DNA from: Syntrophaceae bacterium
GTDB lineage: Bacteria; Desulfobacterota; BSN033; UBA1163
NCBI GenBank assembly: GCA_013388635.1
Contig: JACAEX010000010.1
Coordinates: forward strand, 1-61,173
Direction: 5' to 3'
DNA length: 61,173 nucleotides
Shown here in pieces: positions 7,076 to 20,292 of this stretch. The notes under the pieces were generated by a model. That model was not told where the DNA came from. It saw only the letters and a program-made list of their open reading frames with translations, and ran no database searches. A program made the position numbers and the translations under genes. Numbering within the stretch: position 1 is the first letter of the stretch; each line of letters begins with the position of its first letter.

Positions 7076-7120
7076 AAATAAGGATTGGGCACGGCTGTTT
7101 CAGCGAGAAATATTTCTGAG

Positions 7121-8122
7121 ATGAGATTGAGGGTAGGCATTACCTACAACCTGAAGCAGGATTTCCTTTACACGGAAAACCAGCCGATCGATTTTTTGGA
7201 GGAGTTCGACTCAGAGGAGACGATCGAGGCGATTCGAAACGTTCTCGAAAGCGATGGTCACGAAGTGGTCAAGCTGGGCGGCGACCTCGGTCTGATTGAC
7301 CGGTTGAGACAGACCCCGATCGACATCGTATTCAACATCGCCGAAGGCCTTCAGGGCCGAAACAGAGAAGCCCACATCCCCGCCCTCTTAGAATATCTGA
7401 GGATCCCCTATACCGGTTCCGATCCCCTGACCCTCTCCCTGACCTTGGACAAGTCAATGGCAAAAAGGGTGGTGATGAGCGAAGGGATTCCAACCCCGCG
7501 TTTTATGAAAGTGGAGAGGATGGAGGATCTCCGTCAGTTGAACCTGAACTATCCCCTGTTTGTGAAGTTATGTTATGAGGGCTCGAGCAAGGGGGTTCGG
7601 CTGGATTCAAAGATCTCGAACCGTCGGTCTCTGGAAGAGAAAGCGGAATGGCTGTTGAAGACCTACGGCCCTCCTCTTCTGGTGGAAGAGTTTGTGAGCG
7701 GTCCAGAGTTCACTGTGGGCATCCTCGGCAATGAGAGCCCGACGGTGCTCGGGGTCATGCAGATCGAGATCAAGGGCAGTCCTGTGGAGGAGGCCATTTA
7801 TTCCGTGGAGGTGAAGAGGGAATGGGAGGAGAGGGTTCATTACCATTGTCCCCCTCCTGTGGATGTCCATCTTTTAAGGGAGATCGAGGCCGTGGCCCTC
7901 CGATCCTATCGTCTGCTCGATTGTCGTGACGTATCCAGAGTGGACATCCGCGTGGATCAGAACGGGACTCCGCATTTTTTGGAGATCAATCCCCTTCCAG
8001 GTCTCTCTCCAGTCTATGGAGATCTTCCGATCATGGCAGGCCGGATGGGATGGGATTATGCGCGGCTTATCAGAACGATCTTCGATCACGCCTTGAAGAG
8101 GAATGGTTTGTTAGGGAGATGA
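7121..8122 (+). CDS. D-Ala-D-Ala ligase-like ATP-grasp enzyme (copy 1)
   Basis: This 333-residue ATP-grasp ligase should join an amino acid or similar carboxylate to an amine using ATP. Visible family motifs are an N-terminal VFNIAEG loop, IPALLEYLRIPYTGSDPLT, the ATP-binding FVKLCYEGSSKGV, VEEFVSGPEFTVGI, and the metal-binding RVDIRV with FLEINPLPGLSP. D-Ala-D-Ala ligases share this plan, but a paralogue is encoded at 13199-14227 beside a lysine aminomutase, so the substrate is probably not D-Ala. I start it at ATG 7121 (MRLRVGITYN), where the Rossmann-like strand begins. A TTG at 7085 is possible. The kinase gene follows after seven bases, so it is co-transcribed with a regulatory pair. Confidence 0.82.
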   Translation: MRLRVGITYNLKQDFLYTENQPIDFLEEFDSEETIEAIRNVLESDGHEVVKLGGDLGLIDRLRQTPIDIVFNIAEGLQGRNREAHIPALLEYLRIPYTGSDPLTLSLTLDKSMAKRVVMSEGIPTPRFMKVERMEDLRQLNLNYPLFVKLCYEGSSKGVRLDSKISNRRSLEEKAEWLLKTYGPPLLVEEFVSGPEFTVGILGNESPTVLGVMQIEIKGSPVEEAIYSVEVKREWEERVHYHCPPPVDVHLLREIEAVALRSYRLLDCRDVSRVDIRVDQNGTPHFLEINPLPGLSPVYGDLPIMAGRMGWDYARLIRTIFDHALKRNGLLGR

Positions 8123-10890: not shown

Positions 10891-11325
10891 ATGGTGGAGA
10901 GGGCCAAATGGGCTTTTATACTCGATAGGGATGAGTTCGTTCGTCTCAGCCTGAATAAGATTTTAAAAAAATATGGATTTCAGGTGGAGGAGATAGAAGA
11001 CTTTTCTCAGATTGTGAAAAGGAAAAGGGATGTCAGGGAAGGGGTGATCTTAGCGGATGTTGAGATCGAGACTCTGGAACGACAGATCTCTCTCTTCCGG
11101 AAATGGAATGATCGCTTCATTCTGATGAGCCCATTGATCACAGATGAACTCATCCTCCGTTTAAAGAGACTTGGTATTGAACGGATCATTAAGAAACCTG
11201 TCGATCCCAGGATGTTGAGGAAACAGATCCGAGAAATCCCTTTCCCTGATGGAGCGAAAGCTCTTTCATCAGGGGGAAAAAGGGAGGGTTCCCACGTCGA
11301 TCAGAAAGGAGGTGAAGAGGTATGA
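10891..11325 (+). CDS. single-domain receiver-like protein
   Basis: This 144-residue protein has the fold pattern of a response-regulator receiver without an output domain. Near the start is DRDEF in place of the usual acidic pair. A candidate phospho-acceptor Asp occurs in ILADVEIE (about residue 52), a Ser in LMSP takes the place of the usual Thr/Ser, and a Lys in KKPVDP occupies the conserved Lys position. The C-terminal 25 residues are polar and probably unstructured. No ribosome site is seen before ATG 10891, and the nearby promoter would give an almost leaderless message, so the start could be later. Its stop overlaps the start of the lipoprotein gene (ATGA). It may be a phosphate sink or adaptor for the upstream kinase. 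Confidence 0.65.
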   Translation: MVERAKWAFILDRDEFVRLSLNKILKKYGFQVEEIEDFSQIVKRKRDVREGVILADVEIETLERQISLFRKWNDRFILMSPLITDELILRLKRLGIERIIKKPVDPRMLRKQIREIPFPDGAKALSSGGKREGSHVDQKGGEEV

Positions 11326-11534
11326 AGAAGTGGATTTTTCTCTTCCTCGCAATGGTGTTGGTGATCAATTTGGCTGCGATAGGCATTGGCTGCAAGGCCA
11401 AAGCACCAGAGAAACCAGCGGTGAAAGAGGAGCCAAAGCCTGCTGAGGCACCCAAACCCGCTGAGGCACCAAAGCCTGCTGAGGCACCCAAACCCGCTGA
11501 GGCACCGAAACCGGCTGAAGCACCCAAGAAGTAA
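11322..11534 (+). CDS. small Pro-Ala-Glu-Lys repeat lipoprotein
   Basis: This 70-residue protein has a hydrophobic signal segment (about 4-22) ending in IGIGC, a likely lipidation cysteine at residue 24, although Gly at -3 is not ideal. It continues as an unstructured tail made of five KPAEAP-type hexapeptides and ends APKK. Such a tail could span the cell wall or periplasm as a flexible spacer. The start sits behind a strong AGGAGGTG ribosome site and overlaps the receiver gene by four bases. It is the likely effector of the second sigma54 module, matching the Ala/Pro/Lys-rich exported protein of the first module. No enzymatic function is expected. Confidence 0.75.
   Translation: MKKWIFLFLAMVLVINLAAIGIGCKAKAPEKPAVKEEPKPAEAPKPAEAPKPAEAPKPAEAPKPAEAPKK
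11433..11522 (+). repeat. five 18-bp coding tandem repeats
   Basis: Five 18-base units encode the Pro-Ala-Glu tail. Units 1 and 3 are identical, as are units 2 and 4, so a 36-base block has been duplicated exactly (11433-11468 and 11469-11504). The fifth unit has diverged. This suggests a recent length change of the tail. Confidence 0.9.
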
Positions 11535-11588
11535 GGCTGGGCTGAGAGGTGTTGAAGAGGTATGGGAAGGTATTTTCGTTATTGAAGA

Positions 11589-11625
11589 GTTGGCGCCTTC
11601 TCTCCAGTCAGGAGGGGGCGCCAAC
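11589..11625. terminator. GC-rich hairpin after the lipoprotein gene
   Basis: Arms GTTGGCGCC (11589-11597) and GGCGCCAAC (11617-11625) enclose an inner CTCC/GGAG stem. No T-tract follows, so it may slow or process the transcript rather than act as a classical terminator. Confidence 0.55.
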
Positions 11626-11688
11626 GGAAATCGGTCGATCAAGAGGAGGTTCCTATTAGTCAACGTCAACGCAGAAAGAAAAAAAGGT

Positions 11689-11817
11689 GCATGCCTGTTG
11701 TTCAAGAAGGAATGTTTTTTCCTGATGTCGCAGGAGGAGGTATCGGATGATATCTCCTCTTTTATTTTCTGAGGGAGCTCAAAAACGAGCTGTCCTGCGA
11801 CCTGCTGACAGGCATGC
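11689..11817 (+). ncRNA. candidate structured leader of the lysine aminomutase gene
   Basis: Nested inverted repeats fill the leader. An outer stem pairs GCATGCCTGT (11689-11698) with ACAGGCATGC (11808-11817). A second stem pairs GTCGCAGG (11726-11733) with CCTGCGAC (11794-11801). Inside is a terminator-like hairpin, GAGGAGGTATC/GATATCTCCTC (11734-11759), followed by a T-rich run. The GG of the second stem abuts or overlaps the terminator stem, so alternative pairings are possible. I do not recognise it as a known riboswitch. Confidence 0.45.
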
Positions 11818-11832
11818 CGGGAAGGAGTGAAA

Positions 11833-13116
11833 ATGGAGATTGCCTCAGACTGTAGTGTAGCCCTTCCTCTGAAGGGGACGGAAAGGACCTTGCAACTTCA
11901 ATTGTTTCCCATGCCGGCCGAGGAGAGAAAGCCGGAGGAGACAAGGGAGGTCGTTCCCCCCTTTTGGAGGAATGTTTCACAGAGGGAATGGGACGATTGG
12001 AGATGGCAACTTCGACACCGAATCACGACCTACGAACAGCTGAAGGATATCCTCGATCTGGTACCGGAGGAGATCGAGGGGATCAAACATTCCAAAGGAA
12101 GACTGGCCTTGGCCGTAACCCCCTATTTCGCCAGCCTGATGGACCCTTCCAATCCGAACTGCCCCATCCGGAGGCAGGCGATTCCCCGGATTGAGGAGAA
12201 CCACATCTCCAAAAGTGATATGGTGGATCCGTGTGGAGAGGACAGGGATTCACCTGTGCCAGGATTGGTCCATCGCTATCCGGATCGGGTACTCCTGCTC
12301 GTCACCGATCAATGCGCAGTCTATTGCCGGTATTGTACCCGGCGGCGATTGGTGGGAACAAACGAACGCTCCATCACACAGGGGAATTTTGAAGAGGTCT
12401 TAAAATATCTGAAGACCCATCGGAAGGTTCGGGACGTCCTCCTCTCCGGAGGCGATCCACTCCTCCTGGAGAATGAGAGGCTGGAGGAGATTTTGAGCCG
12501 GTTGAGGGTCATTCCCCATATCGAGATCCTCCGAATCGGGACGAGAGCGCCGGTCACCCTTCCCCAGAGGATTACCGGCGGATTGGTGAGGATGCTCAAG
12601 AAGTATCACCCCCTGATGATGTCCATCCACTTCACCCATCCGAAGGAGATCACCGAGACGGTCAAAAGGGCGTGTGGAGACCTGGCAGATGGGGGCATCC
12701 CATTGGGAAGTCAGACCGTTCTTCTGAAAGGGATCAATGATAAACCCTACGTCATGAAGAAGCTGGTCCAGGAGCTTCTCAAAATTCGGGTTCGGCCCTA
12801 CTACATTTACCAGTGCGACCTGGCTATGGGGACCGAGCATTTCCGAACCTCCATCGCCACCGGGATTCAGATCATTGAGAAATTGCGAGGTCATACCACG
12901 GGCTATGCTGTTCCCACATACGTCGTCGATGCCCCCGGAGGAGGGGGGAAAATTCCAGTCGATCCCGTATATGTGATCTCGAGGGGCAAAGGAAAGGTCG
13001 TCCTGAGAAACTATGAGGGGAAGACGTTCGAGTATCCAGAGCCGAATATCATTGAATTTAAGAGGGCCAGGTCAATCGGTGAGGAGAAGGTTGCCTCAAA
13101 GAAGGTGAGTGCATAG
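11833..13116 (+). CDS. kamA: lysine 2,3-aminomutase family radical SAM enzyme
   Basis: This 427-residue enzyme should convert L-lysine to beta-lysine using S-adenosylmethionine, a 4Fe-4S cluster and pyridoxal phosphate. The radical-SAM motif is C161-x3-C165-x2-C168 (CAVYCRYC). The PLP lysine is K373 in VDAPGGGGK. D329 (YQCDLAMG) and D366 (VVDAPG) match the two aspartates that hold the lysine side-chain amine in the clostridial enzyme, with the same 37- and 7-residue spacings. This argues for lysine rather than glutamate as substrate. The Cys-rich zinc tail of the clostridial enzyme is missing. The start at ATG 11833 follows AAGGAG by five bases. No beta-lysine acetyltransferase is encoded nearby. 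The neighbours are ATP-grasp ligases instead. The gene ends inside a large hairpin. Confidence 0.9.
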   Translation: MEIASDCSVALPLKGTERTLQLQLFPMPAEERKPEETREVVPPFWRNVSQREWDDWRWQLRHRITTYEQLKDILDLVPEEIEGIKHSKGRLALAVTPYFASLMDPSNPNCPIRRQAIPRIEENHISKSDMVDPCGEDRDSPVPGLVHRYPDRVLLLVTDQCAVYCRYCTRRRLVGTNERSITQGNFEEVLKYLKTHRKVRDVLLSGGDPLLLENERLEEILSRLRVIPHIEILRIGTRAPVTLPQRITGGLVRMLKKYHPLMMSIHFTHPKEITETVKRACGDLADGGIPLGSQTVLLKGINDKPYVMKKLVQELLKIRVRPYYIYQCDLAMGTEHFRTSIATGIQIIEKLRGHTTGYAVPTYVVDAPGGGGKIPVDPVYVISRGKGKVVLRNYEGKTFEYPEPNIIEFKRARSIGEEKVASKKVSA

Positions 13117-13149
13117 CCCTGAACCAGGCAGGGTTCAGGGCTATGCACT
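13108..13149 (+). terminator. 18-bp perfect hairpin across the aminomutase stop codon
   Basis: Arms 13108-13125 and 13132-13149 are perfectly complementary over 18 bases around a 6-base loop, beginning AGTGCATAGCCC. The stop codon lies in the left arm. There is no T-tract. It may limit read-through into the next ligase gene or protect the 3' end. Confidence 0.75.
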
Positions 13150-13198
13150 TCCGGTTATAGGAGGTCGGGCCGCCATCGAGGGAAGGACGGAGGGTTCC

Positions 13199-14227
13199 AT
13201 GTCGAATGTGGTGATCCTTTACAATCTTTTCGAATGGGTCGAAAAAGGGGAGGAAAAGGATAGCCTGGCAGAGCATGCGATTGTTGAAGAGATTGGAGCG
13301 GTCGAAGAAGCGGTCCGCTCTCTCGGCCATCAAAGCTATGTCATGGCCATTCAAGATGACATCCTGACCGTGGTTCACTGGTTGGAGGAGATCCGTCCCG
13401 ACGTCGTCTTCAACCTGTGCGAAAGCGTTTATGGGGATAGCTGTTTGGAGATGAATGTCCCAGCCCTGTTGGATCTCCTCCGAATCCCTTATACCGGGTC
13501 TCCAGCCCTTACTTTAGGTTTGTGTCAGAATAAAGGGAAGGTGAAAGACATCCTTCTCTCCCAGGGGATCCTCACCCCTCGATATAAGATCTTCGATCGA
13601 GCAGAGAACCATATCAAAGGGAATATTTTCCCCATCATTGTTAAACCCCTCCATGAGGATGGGAGCCTTGGCATTTCGAAGGAGAGTGTGGTCTATGACG
13701 ACGAGGGATTGAACAGGCAGATTCGATATGTGATCGAGAAATATAATCAACCCGCCTTGGTCGAGGAGTTCATCGAAGGCAGGGAGCTGAATGTGGGCCT
13801 GGTGGAGACCAATGGCAAGTTAGGGGTGCTTCCCATCTCGGAGATCGACTACTCCGAATTTCCGGAGGGCGTTCCCAAAATATGCGGCTATGAAGCCAAA
13901 TGGCTTCCTGGAAGTACGGAGTACCAGAAGTCGAAACCGATCTGTCCTGCTCCTCTGGAATGGGTGACGAAGAAGAGGGTGGAACATATTGCCACCAAGG
14001 TCTTTAGACTGTTCGAATGTCGAGATTATGCCAGGGTGGATATAAGGGTCGACCGAGATGGAAAGATCTATGTGATAGAAGTCAATCCAAATCCAGATAT
14101 CTCTCTCCAGTCCGGAATGACGAGATCCGTCAAAGTTGCAGGGATGACCTATACAGAATTCGTTGGAGGTTTGATCGAGAGGGCCCTTCAAAGAAGAGAT
14201 GGGAAGATGAACAATGCAACAAAATGA
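13199..14227 (+). CDS. D-Ala-D-Ala ligase-like ATP-grasp enzyme (copy 2)
   Basis: This 342-residue paralogue of the ligase at 7121-8122 shares VFNLCES, VPALLDLLRIPYTGS, VEEFIEGRELNVGL and the metal-binding RVDIRV with IEVNPNPDIS. The ATP loop reads IVKPLHEDGSLGI. The terminal motif NPNPD differs from the NPLPG of copy 1, so substrates may differ. ATG 13199 is preceded by GGAGGG at a suitable distance. Upstream in-frame codons lie within the kamA hairpin and are unlikely starts. Its position after kamA suggests use of beta-lysine or a derivative, which is an inference. The last residues (GKMNNATK) are encoded by the start of an AT-rich heptad repeat. Confidence 0.8.
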   Translation: MSNVVILYNLFEWVEKGEEKDSLAEHAIVEEIGAVEEAVRSLGHQSYVMAIQDDILTVVHWLEEIRPDVVFNLCESVYGDSCLEMNVPALLDLLRIPYTGSPALTLGLCQNKGKVKDILLSQGILTPRYKIFDRAENHIKGNIFPIIVKPLHEDGSLGISKESVVYDDEGLNRQIRYVIEKYNQPALVEEFIEGRELNVGLVETNGKLGVLPISEIDYSEFPEGVPKICGYEAKWLPGSTEYQKSKPICPAPLEWVTKKRVEHIATKVFRLFECRDYARVDIRVDRDGKIYVIEVNPNPDISLQSGMTRSVKVAGMTYTEFVGGLIERALQRRDGKMNNATK

Positions 14228-15504: not shown

Positions 15505-16411
15505 AATATAAGTTGTTCTTTGTTAGATTGGTTGCATGGCGAGGCCGTTACGAATCGAGTATCCCGGCGCGGTTTATCATGTGACCTCCCGAGGCAATGG
15601 GAGGAACAGGATATTCAGAGACGATCAGGATCGGGAAATTTTCCTTTCCAGCCTGGAGGATGTGGTCACCCGATATAACTGGCTCTGCCATGCTTATTGT
15701 CTGATGGACAATCACTATCACCTTGTGGTTGAAACGCCAGATGGCAATCTCTCGATTGGGATGCGGCAGTTAAACGGGGTTTATACCCAGAGGTATAACA
15801 GGAGGCATCACAAGACCGGCCATCTTTTTGGGGGTCGATTCAAGGCGATTCTGGTAGAGAAGGGTGATTATCTTCTTGAGCTGTGTCGATATGTGGTTCT
15901 GAATCCTGTGCGTGCAAAGGTGGTTGAGAAGCCTGAGTTGTGGAGGTGGAGTAGCTATCAGGCGACTGTAGGGATGCGAAAGAGGCCTGACTATTTGACT
16001 ACGGAATGGATTTTGGGTTTGTTTGGTAGCAGGGCGGTCGTAGCGCGGAGGGAATATCGTAAGTTTGTGCAGGAGGGGATTGGCCAGGAGAGTCCATGGG
16101 GCAAGGTTCAGGGACAGGTGTTTTTGGGAGAGGAGGGGTTTGTTGAGAGGATCAAGGGTCTTTTTGGGGATAGAAAGGAGGTCAGGGAGATTCCTCGCTC
16201 CCAGAGGTATGTAAACAGGCCGGGTCTGGATCAGATATTCAGCGGACAGGAGGAGAAGGAGGGTAGAAATATCGGCATCCGTAGTGCTCACCTGAGTTAT
16301 GGGTATACCCTGAGAGAGATTGCTGATTATCTTGGGATTCATTATACCACCGTGAGCAAAGTGATAGGAGGGAAGGAGTAGATAAAAAATGATATTTCAA
16401 GACCTGACCCC
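15490..16411 (+). mobile_element. IS200-like/RAYT transposon unit with 20-bp terminal inverted repeats
   Basis: The ends GGGGTCAGGTCTTGAAATAT (15490-15509) and its exact complement (16392-16411) flank a single Y1-transposase gene. The element is about 920 bases. The left end overlaps the 3' end of the rRNA methyltransferase gene. No target-site duplication is obvious. Confidence 0.85.
15536..16381 (+). CDS. REP-associated tyrosine transposase (IS200-like Y1 HUH)
   Basis: This 281-residue single-strand transposase begins with the family signature MARPLRIEYPGAVYHVTSRG. It has the HUH metal motif in MDNHYHLVVE (about 61-70), a downstream Tyr in GVYTQRYN as the likely nucleophile, and LCRYVVLNPVRAKVV. 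Its C-terminal third is an extra domain ending in a helix-turn-helix-like LREIADYLGIHYTTVSKVI, common in this family. It is the only gene between the 20-base inverted ends. The frame is intact, so the element may still move. It probably arrived after the flanking methyltransferase and aspS genes were already neighbours. Confidence 0.9.
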   Translation: MARPLRIEYPGAVYHVTSRGNGRNRIFRDDQDREIFLSSLEDVVTRYNWLCHAYCLMDNHYHLVVETPDGNLSIGMRQLNGVYTQRYNRRHHKTGHLFGGRFKAILVEKGDYLLELCRYVVLNPVRAKVVEKPELWRWSSYQATVGMRKRPDYLTTEWILGLFGSRAVVARREYRKFVQEGIGQESPWGKVQGQVFLGEEGFVERIKGLFGDRKEVREIPRSQRYVNRPGLDQIFSGQEEKEGRNIGIRSAHLSYGYTLREIADYLGIHYTTVSKVIGGKE

Positions 16412-18317: not shown

Positions 18318-18477
18318 AAGAAGGAGGTTGAGGCTGAGGTTAAGAGTAGAAGCAAGCCCAAGCCGCTCCTGTCAGAAAAGAATTCAGTAAGTGAAAATGT
18401 AGACAAAGGTCCTTCAAATTTTAACCATCCATTCCCCTTCCCTTTCGATGGGTGGAGGGGAAGAAAGAGGAGAAGAG

Positions 18478-20292
18478 ATGGCCATCACACGAAAGAGAAA
18501 GACGTTTCAAAGCAAGCCTGTTGCAGGAAGGTTTCCCCTTCTCGACGTTCAGGAGCCGAATCTCTACCGGCATATCTTTCCGTATGATGAGGTCTGTCGG
18601 GTGGAATTCGATAATAAATTTGTCTTCAGCGATCCGCCCGAAGAGATCTTCATCACCGATACCACCTTCCGTGACGGCCAGCAGGCAAGACCTCCTTACA
18701 CGGTCGAGCAGATCGTTGACCTCTTCGATATGCTCCACAAATTGGGAGGGGCCAACGGAGTGATCCGACAGTCTGAGTTCTTCCTTTACAGCGAGAAGGA
18801 TAAAGAGGCTGTGACCAGATGTCTGGAGAGGCATTACCGGTACCCTGAGATCACGGGATGGATCCGTGCTTCGAAAGAGGATTTTAAACTGGTCAAGGAG
18901 ATGGGGCTGAAGGAGACAGGGATCCTCACCTCTGTTTCGGATTACCATATCTTTCTCAAGCTGAAGAAGAACAGAAGGGTGGTGCTCCGGGAGTACCTCT
19001 CCATCGTTTCCGCTGCCCTGGACCTCGGGATCATCCCTCGATGCCATTTTGAGGATATCACACGCGCGGACATCTACGGGTTCTGCGTCCCGTTTGCCCA
19101 GGATATCATGCGCCTTTCCGAGGAGGCGGGACTTCCCGTAAAGATCCGACTTTGCGATACCATGGGCTATGGGGTGACCTACCCGGGTGCCGCGCTTCCG
19201 CGTTCCGTGCCCAAGATCATTCGGGCGATGATCGATGATGCGGGCGTTCCCTCTGAATACTTAGAATGGCACGGCCATAACGATTTCTACCAGGGGTTGA
19301 CCAATGCGGCTACGGCCTGGCTCTACGGGTGTGCGGCAGCCAATGGCACGCTCTTGGGCTTTGGTGAGCGGACCGGAAACGCACCGATCGAGGCCCTGAT
19401 CATCGAGTACATCAGCCTGACCGGCCATACTAATGGGATCGATACGACCATGATCACAGAGATTCGAAACTACTATGAGCGGGTGATCGGCATTCCCATT
19501 CCGGCCAATATGCCCTTTGTCGGGGCCAACTTCAATGCCACCAGCGCAGGGATCCATGCCGACGGCATTTTGAAGAACGAGGAGATTTACAATATCTTCA
19601 ATACGGCCAAAATCCTGAACCGGCCGATCTCCATCTCGGTCAACGACAAGTCCGGACTGGCGGGGATAGCCCAGTGGATCAACTCTCACTTTGCCTTGAC
19701 CGGAAAGGACAGGATCGAAAAGACCCATCCAGGAGTGGCCAAGATCAATCGCTGGGTCACGAAGCAGTACGAGGACGGAAGGACGACGGCCATTTCCGAT
19801 CAGGAGATGGAGAAGGTTACCCGGAAATACCTCCCTGAGATTTTCGTCTCAGAGTTCGACATGCTGAAGGCGAAGGCCCATGAAATGGCAGCTCACATCA
19901 TTGAACGGGTGATCGAGGAGCCCAGCATGAAATCGATGGACCCCCAGCAGATGGAGCCCGTTCTCCAATCTTTGGTGGACGACTATCCTTATATCCAGTT
20001 CGCTTATGTGGTCAATATTCACGGGACCAAGATCACGCGAAATATCTGCCAGGCCGTGGACCAATCCAAATATGAGCATGTGGGTGTAGGAGAGAACTAC
20101 TCGAACCGTTCCTGGTTCATCGAGCCTTTGAAGGATGGGAAGGTCCATGTCACCGATCTCTACTCCTCAAAGATCACGGGCGCGCTCTGCATCACGGTCT
20201 CAGGTCCGATCCGGAACGAAACAGGAGAGATCAAAGGGATCCTCGGCCTTGATATCCGGTTCGAGGATTTGACCAAGAGCGAGGGAGAGTAG
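18478..20292 (+). CDS. homocitrate/isopropylmalate synthase-like enzyme fused to a Cache-like domain; candidate Re-citrate synthase
   Basis: This is a 604-residue protein. Residues about 50-400 are a DRE-TIM metallolyase domain with ITDTTFRDGQQ (Asp61, Arg65), RCHFEDITRA and the metal-binding EWHGHNDFYQG. Enzymes of this group condense acetyl-CoA with 2-oxo acids to give isopropylmalate, homocitrate, citramalate or (Re-type) citrate. Residues about 490-604 resemble a periplasmic-type Cache/PDC ligand domain (YIQFAYVVNIHGTKITRN, GENYSNRSWF, GLDIRFEDL), but no transmembrane helix precedes it, so it would be cytosolic. With malate dehydrogenase, fumarase and succinyl-CoA synthetase encoded nearby and no ordinary citrate synthase in view, Re-citrate synthase is my preferred guess. 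The start at 18478 follows AGGAG. ATG 18448 lacks a ribosome site. Confidence 0.7.
   Translation: MAITRKRKTFQSKPVAGRFPLLDVQEPNLYRHIFPYDEVCRVEFDNKFVFSDPPEEIFITDTTFRDGQQARPPYTVEQIVDLFDMLHKLGGANGVIRQSEFFLYSEKDKEAVTRCLERHYRYPEITGWIRASKEDFKLVKEMGLKETGILTSVSDYHIFLKLKKNRRVVLREYLSIVSAALDLGIIPRCHFEDITRADIYGFCVPFAQDIMRLSEEAGLPVKIRLCDTMGYGVTYPGAALPRSVPKIIRAMIDDAGVPSEYLEWHGHNDFYQGLTNAATAWLYGCAAANGTLLGFGERTGNAPIEALIIEYISLTGHTNGIDTTMITEIRNYYERVIGIPIPANMPFVGANFNATSAGIHADGILKNEEIYNIFNTAKILNRPISISVNDKSGLAGIAQWINSHFALTGKDRIEKTHPGVAKINRWVTKQYEDGRTTAISDQEMEKVTRKYLPEIFVSEFDMLKAKAHEMAAHIIERVIEEPSMKSMDPQQMEPVLQSLVDDYPYIQFAYVVNIHGTKITRNICQAVDQSKYEHVGVGENYSNRSWFIEPLKDGKVHVTDLYSSKITGALCITVSGPIRNETGEIKGILGLDIRFEDLTKSEGE

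Follow-up and report, generated by a model that had tools for sequence, protein, structure and literature searches.

The kamA leader of this Syntrophaceae genome probably acts in cis as a transcription attenuator for kamA alone, since it combines an intrinsic terminator, a covarying outer stem (P1) that touches the ribosome site and an exclusive link to this gene. The preliminary description had proposed a riboswitch or an attenuator. The attenuator-like side of that proposal agrees with a terminator found in 17/17 leaders, the covariation of P1 and the one-to-one association with kamA, while a riboswitch is unsupported. We consider the leader most likely a new, family-restricted attenuator. 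The window, meaning the whole stretch of 61,173 nucleotides that was analysed, is one contig of a 3.4-Mb draft genome. The features of the locus are listed below.

11322-11534, small lipoprotein-like gene with PAEAPK repeats, upstream of kamA in 17/17 genomes
11589-11625, + strand, hairpin H0 (GTTGGCGCC...GGCGCCAAC) without a U-tract, 3′ of the lipoprotein gene
11641-11649, + strand, Shine-Dalgarno-like AAGAGGAGG of the putative leader ORF, matched in most relatives
11655-11750, + strand, putative leader ORF with an ATT start, ISQRQRRKKKRCMPVVQEGMFFPDVAGGGIG, its TGA stop in the P3 loop
11664-11687, + strand, run of Arg/Lys codons (RQRRKKKR), the same stretch as the purine tract conserved in the 17 leaders
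11689-11698, + strand, P1 5′ arm (region 1), the proposed switch strand
11708-11723, + strand, hairpin P2 (AGGAA...UUCCU) of the predicted fold
11727-11735, + strand, middle stem 5′ arm of the predicted fold, this genome only
11732-11769, + strand, P3, intrinsic terminator hairpin with its U-rich tail, from the terminator scan
11738-11743, + strand, AGGTAT in the P3 5′ arm, candidate antiterminator partner of 11691-11696
11793-11801, + strand, middle stem 3′ arm, partner of 11727-11735, this genome only
11808-11817, + strand, P1 3′ arm, immediately 5′ of the kamA ribosome site
11820-11827, + strand, kamA Shine-Dalgarno GGAAGGAG, invariant in the 17 leaders
11833-13116, + strand, kamA, a KamA-family radical SAM enzyme, with a conserved start ATG at 11833

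The kamA product is a probable lysine 2,3-aminomutase: it scored 366 against TIGR00238 (over the cut-off of 199) and 522.4 bits against TIGR03820 (under the cut-off of 525.4), and it matched PF12544. The leader lies between kamA and the 70-residue lipoprotein-like gene, for which searches of Pfam and NCBIfam gave zero matches. H0 (consensus GTTGGCG[C/T]C...G[G/A]CGCCAAC) lies 3′ of the lipoprotein gene, ahead of the kamA leader, and is single-copy in its own genome. An exact hairpin was located by script 5′ of kamA in 16 of the 17 genomes, L011 having a near-match whose arm includes one G-U, and the H0 arms covary, as in L012 (GTTAGCGCC/GGCGCTAAC). The sole find of a promoter scan was a weak site within the leader.

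Several other genes of the neighbourhood were recorded. ATP-grasp genes resembling D-Ala-D-Ala ligases (7085-8122 and 13109-14227) lie near kamA, all scoring under the curated NCBIfam cut-offs, and in L055 kamA is apparently followed by two similar ATP-grasp genes; from these arrangements a beta-lysine ligation pathway is conceivable. Also near kamA is a REP-associated tyrosine transposase (15536-16381; NF047646, 82.3 bits, cut-off 80). The gene at 18448-20292 fuses an HMGL/isopropylmalate-synthase-like domain to a C-terminal PDC/Cache-type sensor domain, an uncommon pairing.

P1 was found exactly as first described: GCATGCCTGT (11689-11698) is perfectly complementary to ACAGGCATGC (11808-11817), and the stem is part of the predicted minimum-energy fold of the window. 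A conserved counterpart is present in 16 relatives. In the alignment of the 17 leaders 91.4% of the cells are paired, and sliding the arms out of register lowers pairing to 27-54%. Two-sided changes occur at three pairs (A-U/G-C, C-G/U-A and C-G/U-A); they are common within genera and so probably represent about three evolutionary events. Neither the covariation score nor the count of cells with two-sided changes was matched by any of 500 shuffles. A G-G mismatch sits in the middle of P1 in most leaders of genus g2, and the stem is formed only weakly (0.11) in L018.

The inner hairpin, also taken to be terminator-like from the start, was identified as such by the terminator scan (11732-11761, tail TTATTTTC). 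A hairpin with a T-rich tail, as in a Rho-independent terminator, is conserved in all the leaders, with 98.2% of the cells paired. P3 is located about 70 nt upstream of kamA, inside P1, and RNAalifold recovered P1 and P3 together unaided. The ribosome site had been placed directly after the outer stem, and GGAAGGAG is indeed found there, followed by the conserved start codon.

The middle stem fared less well. It exists in this genome, as a 9-bp helix, with GTCGCAGGA at 11727-11735 as its 5′ arm (and not 11726-11733, as initially given), paired with TCCTGCGAC at 11793-11801. It was rejected as a conserved element because only 49.5% of the cells are paired in the 17-leader alignment; relatives of genus g2 tend toward a different stem at this position. 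The comparison of homologues thus upheld the outer stem and the presence of the terminator, but not the middle stem. Similarly, the competition suggested between the middle and inner stems around 11733-11734 comes down to an overlap of a few bases at most, and both coexist in the predicted fold. The P2 hairpin is paired in 81% of the cells in one common register, with zero two-sided changes, and most of it is missing from L021. As a whole, the region 11680-11840 (161 nt) folds with z = -4.5, and none of 200 shuffles was equally stable.

A blastn search with the leader gave a match in 16/16 other genomes of the family, each immediately 5′ of kamA. A covariance model retrieved exactly one strong copy (E <= 2e-24) per genome in 17/17 genomes of the order; as the model was built from these same 17 leaders, those hits arise by construction and the informative result is that no further copies were found. 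The leader was rejected as a dispersed repeat or regulon element, there being only one copy, and the weak hits of the model were rejected as leader paralogues, those inspected being ordinary terminators or chance. Searches with the covariance model and blastn in six other genomes of the class found no leader; kamA scored over threshold in only one of these six non-family genomes, and the leader is not present there. No such leader was seen ahead of three other kamA-family genes (the f2 gene and two second paralogues), nor, by eye, in the upstream regions of the distant kamA genes L050-L054, L056-L059, L072, L102 and L114.

Among the other KamA-family loci, L165 (G000:C59:7145-8185) is a second gene in the same genome, 49% identical and without the kamA leader. 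Several distant kamA loci seem, from their sequences, to have a MerR-like regulator gene upstream. The Nitrospinota kamA genes L051, L053 and L054 have similar-looking leaders of their own (GGAGGTGGTAA, ACC...GGT hairpins) with a TTGACA-type promoter ahead; by eye, these are unrelated to the Syntrophaceae kamA leader.

The sequence of the P1 5′ arm makes it plausible that this strand pairs alternatively with the terminator 5′ arm or with the arm beside the kamA ribosome site. This conflict was missed earlier and is more widely shared than the clash of the middle and inner stems. AUGCCU of the P1 5′ arm (as it reads in the window) can pair with AGGUAU of the P3 5′ arm in 95.1% of the cells, in a register picked after inspection, and in 31-74% when slid; the helix shows no two-sided changes. 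When nascent chains reaching as far as the P3 loop are folded, region 1 pairs with the terminator arm in 17/17 leaders. Against controls in which the columns of region 1 were permuted, the pair count was marginal (P = 0.07) and the energy gain was not higher (P = 0.28). An antiterminator formed by the A-rich tract and the U-tract would be of low complexity and is not compelling.

Upstream of these hairpins lies a stretch that could be read by ribosomes. The Lys/Arg codon run adjoins the 5′ side of P1, with the frame ending ...QRKxKKRC. Lys or Arg make up at least five of 12 codons in 16 of the 17 leaders and at least seven in 14 (L021 has three). Most relatives have the Shine-Dalgarno-like site 4-8 nt 5′ of an in-frame ATT or ATC; a canonical in-frame start is absent in about 7 of the 17 leaders, the Syntrophaceae window included. 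Pairwise BLOSUM similarity, normalised for the number of changes, gave z of about 3.5-3.9 in the basic-run frame (0 of 300-600 column shuffles), in coding tests that covered several stretches and groupings and are uncorrected; part of this score may be due to purine-rich codons all being Lys, Arg or Gln. The synonymous-change test reached significance in none of the stretches examined (P 0.14-0.75), and third positions had no excess of change. After the TGC codon, the g1 and g4 leaders taken together gave no coding signal (z = -1.2), and the frame is broken in four leaders (L012, L018, L021 and L024). Judged on these data, the odds that the ORF is translated are slightly better than even.

A rather unlikely alternative is that P3 is a fixed partial terminator that sets the ratio of lipoprotein to kamA, with P1 stabilising or exposing the ribosome site or marking a processing site, and that no switching takes place. 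Nearly all genomes have the lipoprotein gene and H0 ahead of the leader, which agrees with such an arrangement, as does the failure of the antiterminator energy to exceed the composition controls. Thermodynamic estimates of the ribosome site can be read in the same way: its mean unpaired probability is 0.66 in the full fold with P1 and P3, that is, fairly open, and 0.18 when everything up to the P3 3′ arm is masked and P3 is disrupted. These modelled values also fit P1 plus P3 being the translatable state after readthrough, with the ribosome site opened. Against a terminator without a switch stand a P1 5′ arm that remains able to pair with the terminator arm as well as with the P1 3′ arm, and the conservation of an upstream Lys/Arg-rich run together with a Shine-Dalgarno-like site.

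A metabolite riboswitch, in which the purine tract and P1 would form an aptamer for lysine, beta-lysine, SAM or an ion and P3 the expression platform, is improbable. The leader is structured, has a terminator and stands ahead of a metabolic gene, and its A-rich tract and P1 are strongly conserved. However, no Rfam family fits it. The whole window gave no gathering-level match except to rRNA and tRNA; a permissive search of 11400-12000 found no riboswitch family at E <= 10, the Na+ and c-di-AMP riboswitches included; and on nine related loci nothing came near the gathering score at the leader. The lysine riboswitch (RF00168), which the leader resembles in preceding a lysine-related gene and in having a terminator, matched neither the leader nor any other part of the 17 genomes, in a search that was positive in four known control genomes; the initial impression that this is not a lysine riboswitch was correct. 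Moreover, the invariant positions, one column excepted, are in the purine tract, the P1 arms, the terminator and the ribosome site, and so no conserved junction is left for a ligand-binding core: there is one invariant column between the P1 5′ arm and P3, and none from the P3 tail to the P1 3′ arm. The length of the interior differs greatly among leaders, and the element serves one gene in one family, with no regulon.

Still less probable is that the g2 leaders also encode a functional small protein (IIRRQRKQKKRCMPAFEDRGRFLCVAGGG...GCGKE, about 50 residues) whose translation is coupled to that of kamA, with the hairpins of secondary importance. In eight g2 leaders the frame is open through P3 to the kamA start, the whole stretch scores as coding (0/300 shuffles), the second codon position changes least and the stop TGA is just 5′ of the kamA ATG. 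Against this, the frame is broken in L021 and L024, which belong to the same genus, and in g1, g4 and g3, and searches with the peptide gave nothing over cut-off in Pfam and no relative in the PDB; a known protein was therefore rejected. Finally, a site for a regulatory protein, for instance a repressor that binds RNA, or an independent small RNA ending at P3, is highly improbable: a conserved structured RNA with its own terminator would suit either, but P1 always ties the element to the kamA ribosome site, and a free RNA would have no use for such a tie.

For the attenuator, known systems offer partial likenesses. In the his-, trp-, thr- and leu-type attenuators, codons for the related amino acid are likewise found just 5′ of alternative hairpins, one of which is an intrinsic terminator. 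Those leaders serve genes that make the amino acid and are turned on by its shortage. The logic proposed for kamA is the opposite, and no Rfam leader family matches. The nearest working analogue is the speF leader with orf34 of the Salmonella ornithine decarboxylase. There, ribosomes translating a short ORF keep transcription from terminating early and free the main ribosome site (PMC6386406). In each of the two leaders a short ORF, putative in the case of kamA, carries basic codons in a row; the gene that follows encodes an enzyme of basic amino-acid metabolism, and its ribosome site is reached by a long-range stem. They differ in that speF relies on Rho, starts its ORF at a canonical AUG and has two Arg codons (PMC6386406), whereas the kamA leader has an intrinsic terminator, Lys as well as Arg codons and a putative ORF with AUU or AUC as its start; no Rfam model of the speF leader matched the kamA leader. 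A Na+/c-di-AMP tandem riboswitch precedes the lysine-2,3-aminomutase gene of Dehalobacter, so an RNA leader with terminators governs the same kind of gene there, but it has recognisable aptamers (PMC9337991), of which the kamA leader matched none. None of the papers searched describes a leader peptide of lysine 2,3-aminomutase or a similar leader.

If the leader is an attenuator, control by ribosomes is somewhat favoured, by analogy with these systems, because the Lys/Arg run stands before P1, a Shine-Dalgarno-like site accompanies AUU or AUC, and the P1 5′ arm can pair with the terminator arm. Under ribosome control, lysine would probably be the signal. Our best explanation of the whole, held tentatively, is a kamA attenuator with the P1 5′ arm as its switch and ribosomes on the Lys/Arg ORF. 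During transcription, we infer, the P1 5′ arm acts as the switch strand and would pair with the terminator 5′ arm as an antiterminator; once RNA polymerase had passed, it would pair with the arm beside the ribosome site, leaving that site largely open. The switch would be set by ribosomes on the short Lys/Arg-rich ORF, the last basic codons of which lie just 5′ of the switch strand. With ample charged Lys and Arg tRNA, the ribosome would enter P3 (in this genome the stop is in the P3 loop) and hold it open, and kamA would be transcribed. A ribosome stalled at the Lys/Arg codons would cover the switch strand, P3 would form and transcription would end. The net effect would be that a lysine-consuming enzyme is turned off under lysine shortage. 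In its most specific form, an inverted-logic Lys/Arg sensor with an AUU- or AUC-start ORF, a stop in the terminator loop and a shared switch strand, the scheme is unlikely.

For the uncultured Deltaproteobacteria concerned, we found no account in the literature of the regulation of lysine 2,3-aminomutase. A conserved attenuator serving this gene alone would mean that their production of beta-lysine is gated through RNA. Were ribosomes the sensor, the leader peptide would be an unusual one, tuned to lysine, through which shortage of the amino acid switches the consuming enzyme off.
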